A stretch of 64,000 nt of DNA from Thermovirga lienii DSM 17291 (GTDB taxonomy: Bacteria; Synergistota; Synergistia; Synergistales; Thermovirgaceae). Shown here piece after piece: positions 51,291 to 55,139 of the stretch. The stretch spans positions 1 to 64,000 of the forward strand of contig CP003096.1 in assembly GCA_000233775.1 (NCBI GenBank), written 5' to 3'. Every line of letters begins with the position of its first letter. Position 1 is the stretch's first letter. The translations under genes and the position numbers were made by a program. The notes below the pieces were generated by a model. That model worked only from the letters and a program-made list of their open reading frames with translations. It searched no databases and was not told the DNA's origin.

Positions 51291-51812
51291 ATGTTGAAGG
51301 AAAAAATGCAAGAAGCACTTAACAAACAGATCAATGAGGAGTTGTACTCAGCGTACCTTTATCTATCCATGTCGGCATACTTCGACAACGTGGGGTTAAA
51401 GGGGTTTGCAAACTGGATGATGGTCCAGTATAAAGAGGAAACGGACCATGCGATGAAAATATACAATTACCTTCTGTCTCAGGGAGCTACGATAAAGCTC
51501 CTTCCCATACAGCAGCCGCCGCACGAATGGGAATCACCCCTTCATGCTTTCCAGGAGACTTTGAAGCACGAACAGCACATAACTCAGTGCATAAACGACC
51601 TTGTGGATCTTGCTGAGGAGCTAAAGGACAGGGCCACGTATAACTTCCTCCAGTGGTACATTGACGAGCAGGTGGAGGAAGAGGAAAACGACAGGGAAAT
51701 AATAGACAAGCTGGAGCTCATAGGGGACAGCAAAAACGGTCTGCTCATGCTGGATAAGGACCTGGCTCAGAGGGTTTACGTACCCTTGATACAGGAAGGT
51801 AGCGGAAATTAG
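51291..51812 (+). CDS. Non-heme ferritin
   Basis: A 173-aa four-helix ferritin for iron storage and detoxification. Ferroxidase-type ligands are visible in INEELYSAYLYLSM, EETDHAMKIYNYL, and VEEEENDREIIDKLE. Length and motifs match bacterial FtnA. It leads an oxygen-defence group with superoxide reductase and rubredoxin. Confidence 0.95.
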   Translation: MLKEKMQEALNKQINEELYSAYLYLSMSAYFDNVGLKGFANWMMVQYKEETDHAMKIYNYLLSQGATIKLLPIQQPPHEWESPLHAFQETLKHEQHITQCINDLVDLAEELKDRATYNFLQWYIDEQVEEEENDREIIDKLELIGDSKNGLLMLDKDLAQRVYVPLIQEGSGN

Positions 51813-51857
51813 TTTAGAGTAGTAGCTTGTTTTATACCCTTGTTAGGAGGTGTGAGC

Positions 51858-52241
51858 ATGGCGGAGGTCAGGGAGATTTATAAGTGCGAGATCTGCGGGA
51901 ACATAGTGGAGGTGCTCCATGGTGGAGCTGGCCAGCTAGTTTGTTGTGGGCAGCCCATGAAGGCGCAAACCCCTCAGACGGCCGATACGTCCCAGGAAAA
52001 GCACGTGCCCTATGTGGAGAGGCAAGGGAACGCCTATGTAGTTAGGGTCGGAGAGAACGCCTTGCATCCCATGGAGGATAAGCATTACATAGAGTGGATA
52101 GAGCTCGAAGTCGATGGTGCATCGTGCAAGAAGTTCTTGAAACCTGGTGACGAGCCTAAGGCCGTCTTCGAAGTCCCCGAGGGCAAGGTGGTAAAGGCGC
52201 GTGAGTACTGCAACATCCACGGACTATGGGTTAAAGAGTAA
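51858..52241 (+). CDS. Superoxide reductase (desulfoferrodoxin)
   Basis: A 127-aa two-domain desulfoferrodoxin. The N-terminal rubredoxin-like Fe site is YKCEICGN with VCCGQPM. The catalytic domain carries the His and Cys ligands in [21 protein letters not shown] and CNIHGLW. It reduces superoxide to peroxide with electrons from rubredoxin, which is encoded just downstream. ATG 51858 follows TTAGGAGG. Confidence 0.95.
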
Positions 52242-52749: not shown

Positions 52750-53841
52750 ATGTTTTCTTATGTTAATCGATGGTTGGTCGGTCGTTTTGGTCCAGCCCTT
52801 ACGGGACTTTTCGTAGGTGTTTTTGCTCCAATTCTTACCTTTCTTGGAAACCCTGGCAACATGGGTATCTGTGTGGCCTGCTTCACCAGGGACGTCGCTG
52901 GGGCCTTGGGGCTTCACCGAGCAGCGGTGGTGCAATATTTGAGGCCTGAGCTTTCAGGGTTCATCTTAGGATCTTTCTTGGCGTCCTTGGTGTATAAGGA
53001 GTACAGACCTCGATCTGGTTCTTCCCCCCTCATTCGGTTTTTCTTAGGCTTTTTCGCAATGATAGGAGCCCTGGTCTTTCTGGGTTGTCCCTGGAGGACT
53101 TATTTGAGGCTAAGCGCCGGAGATTTGAATGCTCTCTTCGGTCTTGGCGGGCTTGTAGTAGGCATATTGATAGGAATCTACTTTTTGTGGAACGGTTTCA
53201 CCCTCGGAAAGAGTCTACCGAACAAAGCCAGCTCTGGTTTAGTTATGCCCATAATAGCTGTCGTTCTCTTGGTTTGGGACATTACCAAGCCTCTGTTTGG
53301 TCCTGGAGGCACAGGTCCCATATTCTTCTCCGTGAAGGGGCCAGGTGCGCAGGCTGCGCCAATCCTCATATCTCTTGCGGTGGGTTTGGCTGTGGGATGG
53401 CTTGCTCAGAGGAGTCGTTTCTGCACTGTAGGGGCCATAAGGGATTTTGTGATGCTGAAGGACGGTCATCTACTGAAGGGAGTTTTGGCCTTTATAGTGG
53501 CGGCTTTCGTGACCAACCTGCTCTTGGGCCAGTTCCACCTGGGTTTTGAAGGCCAGCCGGTGGCTCATACTAATAGTTTATGGAACTTCATGGGGATGGT
53601 CCTTTCAGGTCTAGCCTTTACGCTGGCTGGAGGGTGTCCTGGACGGCAGTTCATAATGAGCGGCGAAGGTGACGGTGACGCAGCGATTTTTATCTTGGGA
53701 ATGCTCGTGGGAGCCGGTTTTGCCCACAACTTCAGCCTGGCTAGTTCCCCCGCAGGACCTGGAGCCTTTGGCCCTGCGGCCACCATAGTTGGGATGGTTT
53801 TCTGTCTGATTGTAGGATTTACCATGAGGGAGAAACTTTAG
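52750..53841 (+). CDS. yedE: YedE/YeeE-family putative selenium transporter
   Basis: A 363-aa membrane protein with about 10 helices. It has conserved Cys/Gly motifs GNPGNMGICVACFTRD, FLGCPWRTYLRLSAGD, RSRFCTVGAIRDF and LAGGCPGRQFIMSGEGDGDAA, typical of YedE-type carriers. It is followed by a YedF-like protein and a Sec-containing SelD, the diagnostic context for selenium rather than thiosulfate uptake. ATG 52750 has AGGAGG 8-9 nt upstream; the frame extends 15 codons further without support. Confidence 0.9.
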   Translation: MFSYVNRWLVGRFGPALTGLFVGVFAPILTFLGNPGNMGICVACFTRDVAGALGLHRAAVVQYLRPELSGFILGSFLASLVYKEYRPRSGSSPLIRFFLGFFAMIGALVFLGCPWRTYLRLSAGDLNALFGLGGLVVGILIGIYFLWNGFTLGKSLPNKASSGLVMPIIAVVLLVWDITKPLFGPGGTGPIFFSVKGPGAQAAPILISLAVGLAVGWLAQRSRFCTVGAIRDFVMLKDGHLLKGVLAFIVAAFVTNLLLGQFHLGFEGQPVAHTNSLWNFMGMVLSGLAFTLAGGCPGRQFIMSGEGDGDAAIFILGMLVGAGFAHNFSLASSPAGPGAFGPAATIVGMVFCLIVGFTMREKL

Positions 53842-53853
53842 GAGGGGTGTAAA

Positions 53854-54075
53854 ATGAATGAAATAAAGGTTGTAGATGCAAGAGGCCTGTCGTGCCCCCA
53901 ACCAGTAATCTTGACAAAAAAGGCCTTGGACGAAGGGCATAACGAATTGGAAGTGCTGGTGGATACCGTGACTTCCAGGTTGAACGTAGAGCGGTTTGCA
54001 AAGAGCAAGGGGTACAATGTAAAGGTCGAAGAGTACGAAGATGGAGGGTTCAAACTACACCTAAGCAAGGCTTAG
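53854..54075 (+). CDS. yedF: YedF-like TusA/SirA-family protein (selenium metabolism)
   Basis: A 73-aa TusA-like sulfurtransferase fold with the catalytic motif ARGLSCPQPVI, Cys near residue 14. TusA proteins carry sulfur as persulfide. Between yedE and selD it probably carries selenium towards selenophosphate synthesis. Full-length YedF also has a C-terminal DsrE-like domain, which is missing here. GGAGGGG precedes the ATG. Confidence 0.85.
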   Translation: MNEIKVVDARGLSCPQPVILTKKALDEGHNELEVLVDTVTSRLNVERFAKSKGYNVKVEEYEDGGFKLHLSKA

Positions 54076-54098: not shown

Positions 54099-55139
54099 AT
54101 GAGGCTTTCAGAGATGGCAAGAACCAGCGGCTGAGCCGCCAAGATAGGTCCGGCGGACCTGGAGGAAGTTTTAAAGGGTTTGGTCAAGCCCGAAGGGAAG
54201 ACCTTTTTGGTTGCAGGATGGGAACACGGTGAGGATGCTGCCGTATGGGAGATAGATGAACGGCGTTTGGGCATCTTGACGGTGGATTTCATAACCCCTG
54301 TGGTGGATGATCCTTTTGCCTTTGGTCAGATAGCGGCAGCCAATTCCTTGAGCGACGTGTTTGCCATGGGGGGCAGGCCGTTGGTGGCCCTCAACGTGGT
54401 AGGTTTTCCGGTGAACTGCCAGCCCCTCGACGTACTTAAGGAGATACTTCGAGGTGGTCAGGAGAGAGTTATGGCGGCAGGAGCCCTCTTGGCAGGTGGG
54501 CACAGCGTGGACGATGAGGAGCCCAAGTATGGACTGGTGGTCTATGGCGAGGTAGAAAGGGACCGTATTTGGAAGGTTACCGGCGCTAGGGAAGGAGATG
54601 TTTTGATCCTCACCAAGCCCTTGGGAACGGGCATGATCATAACGGCCCTCCAGGCTGAAATGGCCCAAGAGAAGGAGATAAAAGAGGCTGTAGAAAGCAT
54701 GGGGACCCTGAACGACTTGCCCCTAAAGCTCTCCGATGACCTATTGACGCAGGTGCACGCCTGCACCGATGTGACGGGTTTTGGCTTGGCAGGACACCTT
54801 TTGGACATGTTAAGCGAAAGTTCGCTGGATGTTCTTTTGGAACCAGAAAAAATACCAATCCTTGAAGGAGCGCTGGAGAAGGCAAATATGGGCCTGGTTC
54901 CTGCCGGGACGTACCGCAACAGGGAGCTTTATGAACCAAGGGTGGAAGGGCTGGAAGGCCTTAGTTTGCCCTTGGCCGACGTTCTTTTCGATGCTCAGAC
55001 CTCAGGGGGACTGCTTTTGGCGGTCCCGGAGCACGTTGCCGAAGGGTTCTGCCGTGAGTGCCAAAAGGCAGGCTTCGTAAAGGCGTCTCCTATCGGAAGG
55101 TTTGTGAAGGGACAAGGTAAAATGGTATTGGAAACATAA
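54099..55139 (+). CDS. selD: Selenophosphate synthetase SelD, selenocysteine-containing (UGA recoded)
   Basis: Makes selenophosphate from selenide and ATP. Reading from ATG 54099 gives MRLSEMARTSG, then in-frame TGA at 54132-54134, then AAKIGPADLEEVLKGL. The TGA falls exactly at the catalytic Cys/Sec of the SelD motif (C/U)-x2-K, with Lys15 present, so it encodes Sec12. The rest has HSVDDEEPKYGLVVYGE and CTDVTGFGLAGHLLDML, giving 346 aa. Standard gene calling would truncate it to a downstream start near 54180. Readthrough needs SelA, SelB and tRNA-Sec, not seen here. Confidence 0.93.
54135..54159 (+). other. Probable SECIS hairpin just after the selD UGA
   Basis: CCGCC (54136-54140) pairs with GGCGG (54152-54156) around the 11-nt loop AAGATAGGTCC, which contains GGT. 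Bacterial SECIS elements are short stem-loops directly 3' of the UGA, often with G residues in the apical loop for SelB binding. The stem is short, so the exact fold is tentative. Confidence 0.6.

Follow-up and report, generated by a model that had tools for sequence, protein, structure and literature searches.

The selD gene at positions 54099-55139 of the window (the whole 64,000-nucleotide stretch of Thermovirga lienii DSM 17291 DNA that we analyzed) contains an in-frame UGA that is almost certainly read as selenocysteine (Sec), and SelD is thus itself a selenoprotein. We assign a probability of roughly 0.97 to the full reading, namely a selenophosphate synthetase with Sec at its catalytic position and a UGA decoded via SelB, Sec-tRNA(UCA) and a SECIS hairpin. 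On established knowledge of such systems, SelB with Sec-tRNA(UCA) would decode the UGA at 54132-54134, aided by its recognition of the hairpin at 54146-54160; the inserted Sec residue would participate in the synthesis of selenophosphate from selenide and ATP; and selenophosphate would serve as the selenium donor for SelA. Synthesis of SelD would then depend on its own product, because SelA uses the selenophosphate that SelD makes. The features concerned are:

52750..53841, + strand: yedE, putative selenium transporter (TIGR04112, 496.8 bits against a cut-off of 200)
53854..54075, + strand: 73-aa protein with a TusA domain, like the N-terminal part of YedF (profile match; adjoins selD in relatives)
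54099..55139, + strand: selD, selenide water dikinase (selenophosphate synthetase), 346 residues with predicted Sec as residue 12 (TIGR00476 match)
54132..54134, + strand: in-frame UGA, predicted Sec at the catalytic position (aligned with the catalytic Cys of 3u0o and 2yye; TGA class-wide)
54146..54160, + strand: apical hairpin AGGUCC-GGC-GGACCU, putative bacterial SECIS (conserved in relatives)

The reading frame opens at ATG 54099, is interrupted solely by the TGA at codon 12 and ends at TAA 55137-55139, for a length of 346 codons with the UGA included, just as the initial annotation (made from the sequence alone) had described it. Table-11 calling lists only a 319-aa open reading frame from TTG 54180, which is the truncation by standard calling that had been anticipated. 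Comparison of the 346-aa readthrough product with SelD proteins, proposed at the same time as a check, gave a full-length family match (353.7 bits for TIGR00476, the NCBIfam SelD profile, against a curated cut-off of 125, over profile positions 1-309 of 311), and both AIRS domains were matched as well. In phmmer alignments with solved SelDs, the UGA coincides with the Cys in 'GAGCGCKI' (3u0o) and with that in SSGCAAKVGPGDL (2yye), and Lys 15, three residues past the UGA, is likewise aligned; the catalytic Cys/Sec and the Lys three residues on that SelD proteins carry near the N-terminus accordingly correspond to UGA residue 12 and Lys 15, as first proposed. These two Cys-SelDs belong to the same family, share the catalytic position and the Lys, and are of similar length, but their aligned chains have Cys instead of Sec, so that they involve no UGA recoding.

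We surveyed 151 genomes of the class, which yielded 110 strong SelD matches, 108 of them covering residue 12 (a hand count from the match table). One in-frame TGA is present in 105 of these 108 and none in the other three, and direct reading placed the TGA at the exact selD codon in 47 loci (45 plus the two diverged loci L060 and L061). The UGA therefore occupies the position at which homologues have Sec or Cys, and it is conserved in relatives. All three class SelD genes that lack the TGA have TGC (Cys) at the catalytic codon; these (L071, L072 and L073, from two genera) are diverged SelDs of 43-44% identity, whose Cys may have originated either in a Sec-to-Cys change or in a transfer. The Sec-SelDs of L060 and L061 are also diverged (42-43% identity); in them Met takes the place of Ala behind the UGA, and the sequence downstream folds differently. 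A second public collection showed TGA at the selD site in 76 of 80 related loci, which come almost entirely from other phyla (TGT in two, with two unplaced); this set was retrieved with this query and is biased towards its relatives. The closest named relative, at 78% identity, is a Thermovirga metagenome-assembled genome (MAG).

Among the alternatives, we considered that translation starts at TTG 54180, that the UGA is the plain stop of a short leader and that the product is a 319-aa SelD lacking its catalytic residue. A purine-rich, Shine-Dalgarno-like sequence does lie upstream of this TTG (GGAGGAAG), and the 319-aa frame by itself scores above the cut-off of the SelD family. However, the stretch ahead of the UGA encodes a conserved SelD N-terminus, RLTE(M/L)..(T/S)SG, in relatives of the class: across 29 relatives the amino acids of the ten codons preceding the UGA are conserved while the synonymous codons vary, which is the mark of class-wide constraint at the protein level. 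A TTG at codon 28 (54180) occurs in only four of the same 29. Because of these two observations, initiation at the internal site is, as judged from sequence comparison, unlikely to be the source of the main SelD product. Such a start would also yield a protein without the catalytic Sec/Cys and the Lys that are aligned in solved SelDs, and would leave the class-wide UGA unexplained; we regard this explanation as a whole as very improbable.

Decoding of the UGA as Sec requires the corresponding machinery, and the initial annotation had accordingly predicted selA, selB and selC elsewhere in the genome, naming the absence of selB or tRNA-Sec as grounds for giving the reading up. Both are present in the genome (1,999,646 bases in two contigs, 99.96% complete): tRNA-Sec was found at 77.5 bits against a gathering score of 47, and ARAGORN reports a tRNA-SeC with anticodon TCA; SelB is full-length (374.7 bits against a cut-off of 242). 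SelA is there too (594.3 bits against 267.9), and selA adjoins selB on the same strand, so that tRNA-Sec, SelA and SelB occur together in one genome. None of the weaker tRNA-Sec matches in this genome reaches the threshold; they presumably represent ordinary tRNAs, and control genomes yield such matches too. The genome also holds further selenoprotein genes, with the consequence that SelD has real clients:

G000:C1:1357592-1359134, 1247569-1248606 and 1526119-1529028 (loci L048-L052): three grdB and two grdA genes, each with an in-frame UGA

In both grdA genes the UGA follows CFV (CFV-U), and in the three grdB genes it precedes GTC (T-U-GTC), in each case at the expected place; these sites fall at the CxxU and UxxC motifs that have been listed for the glycine reductase selenoproteins GrdA/GrdB (PMC9312934). 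With selD, this brings the genome, as sampled by families, to at least six selenoprotein genes. The matched stretches of its formate dehydrogenase-like genes contain no TGA. With a table-11 gene caller, each of the five grd genes would come out split or truncated.

In some other bacteria UGA stands for a different amino acid, and selD could in principle be decoded in this manner (for example, as Trp) or by readthrough that does not involve Sec. We consider this exceedingly improbable here: the homologous residue is Cys both in the solved SelDs and in the three relatives that lack the UGA, the genome encodes tRNA-Sec(UCA), selA and selB, and the neighboring genes show no global recoding of UGA. 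Least probable of all is that selD is a pseudogene whose UGA arose by nonsense mutation or by an error of sequencing. An in-frame stop taken alone would look the same, but this explanation is refuted by the class-wide occurrence of UGA at the same codon (105 of 108 counted, 47 read directly), and the remainder of the selD frame is intact in a genome that has the full Sec machinery as well as other selenoproteins dependent on SelD.

The Sec reading also calls for a hairpin 3' of the UGA (bSECIS), for which the putative SECIS at 54146-54160 is the candidate. Its loop begins with G and lies 17 nucleotides from the UGA, and the stem can be lengthened by a U-G pair to 54145-54161; of 200 shuffles of this 17-mer, 199 are less stable. 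In an alignment of 32 relatives, 92% of cells are paired. For the gene in the window, 500 synonymous recodings that preserve the peptide all fold less stably, and in most relatives the fraction of recodings that fold as well is 0.03 or less. Codons inside the hairpin are nearly frozen among 29 relatives (GGU in 28, CCG in 28, GAC in 28 and AUA in 24), whereas residues just as conserved but lying outside it are encoded by several codons. In three of the 32 aligned rows, all from one lineage, a G-C pair has become C-G in a compensatory swap (GGU..GAC to GCU..GAG), and L063 keeps the hairpin with a different sequence; the covariation is statistically modest, since the stem hardly varies, and amounts to one pair and probably few independent events. 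Two of the three Cys (TGC) selD genes clearly have no comparable hairpin, and the third retains a weak fold. This pattern is in keeping with a SECIS element rather than with constraint on the protein alone.

The stability signal is limited to the apical hairpin, given that the fold of a longer, 51-nucleotide stretch is not unusually stable (z -0.36), and no Rfam family matched at gathering thresholds in the window, so that the hairpin is without support from that library. The hairpin had originally been placed at 54136-54156; a real and conserved hairpin does follow the UGA, but at 54146-54160, and the pairing at the original position, although present here, is not conserved (of its five pairs, the second is broken in 21 of 32 relatives and a further one in 12). 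A third register, shifted by one codon, is 68% paired overall, yet gives the better fold in L038 and L077, in which the stem is shifted by one codon.

Sec-SelD is an established family, as the initial annotation had noted, and is catalogued in prokaryotes (PMC4561486, PMC5029168, PMC9312934); its Sec always lies at this single position, and it accounts for 19% of the SelD genes in a reference set (PMC4561486). The Synergistetes are a selenoprotein-rich phylum in which 13 of 14 genomes use Sec (PMC5029168). In view of both facts the Sec-SelD described here is biologically ordinary; the arrangement is well documented, is nearly universal in this bacterial group and represents the expected form of SelD for the phylum. 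It resembles the Sec-SelDs of other prokaryotes in having Sec at the one known position, SelB, tRNA-Sec and SelA in the genome, and a hairpin soon after the UGA, and differs from them in nothing functional, only in its class-specific, near-invariant hairpin. In the accessible parts of the literature we found no paper on the selenoproteins of Thermovirga lienii itself; the one that names both concerns another Synergistota species. The main import is for annotation, where a table-11 caller would lose codons 1-27 and with them the catalytic residue, and the case illustrates to what extent a SECIS hairpin can be confirmed from relatives. The class-wide near-invariance of the selD hairpin might conceivably reflect a role beyond the promotion of Sec insertion, as a selenium-sensing switch in which a shortage of Sec-tRNA would bring termination at codon 12 and so tune the SelD level (autoregulation), but we hold this idea to be unlikely.

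Upstream of selD, yedE (start codon uncertain, ATG 52750 or GTG 52705), the TusA-domain gene and selD itself follow in tandem with short gaps and form a probable operon, with yedE as the first gene. The genes for YedE and the TusA-like protein adjoin selD in four relatives' stretches, in two of which (L040 and L044) they lie downstream of it. An association of YedE and YedF with selenium genes was reported before (PMC5322559), and the tight tandem seen here resembles that YedE-YedF-SelD neighborhood; unlike full YedF, however, the 73-aa protein consists of the TusA-like domain only, without the DsrE-like C-terminal domain, matching positions 1-67 of the 194 in the YedF profile, and in relatives, too, the alignment spans only this short length. 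Immediately 5' of the selenium genes (window positions 51291-52241) lie a ferritin-like gene and a desulfoferrodoxin gene, which belong to an anaerobe's oxygen and iron defence.
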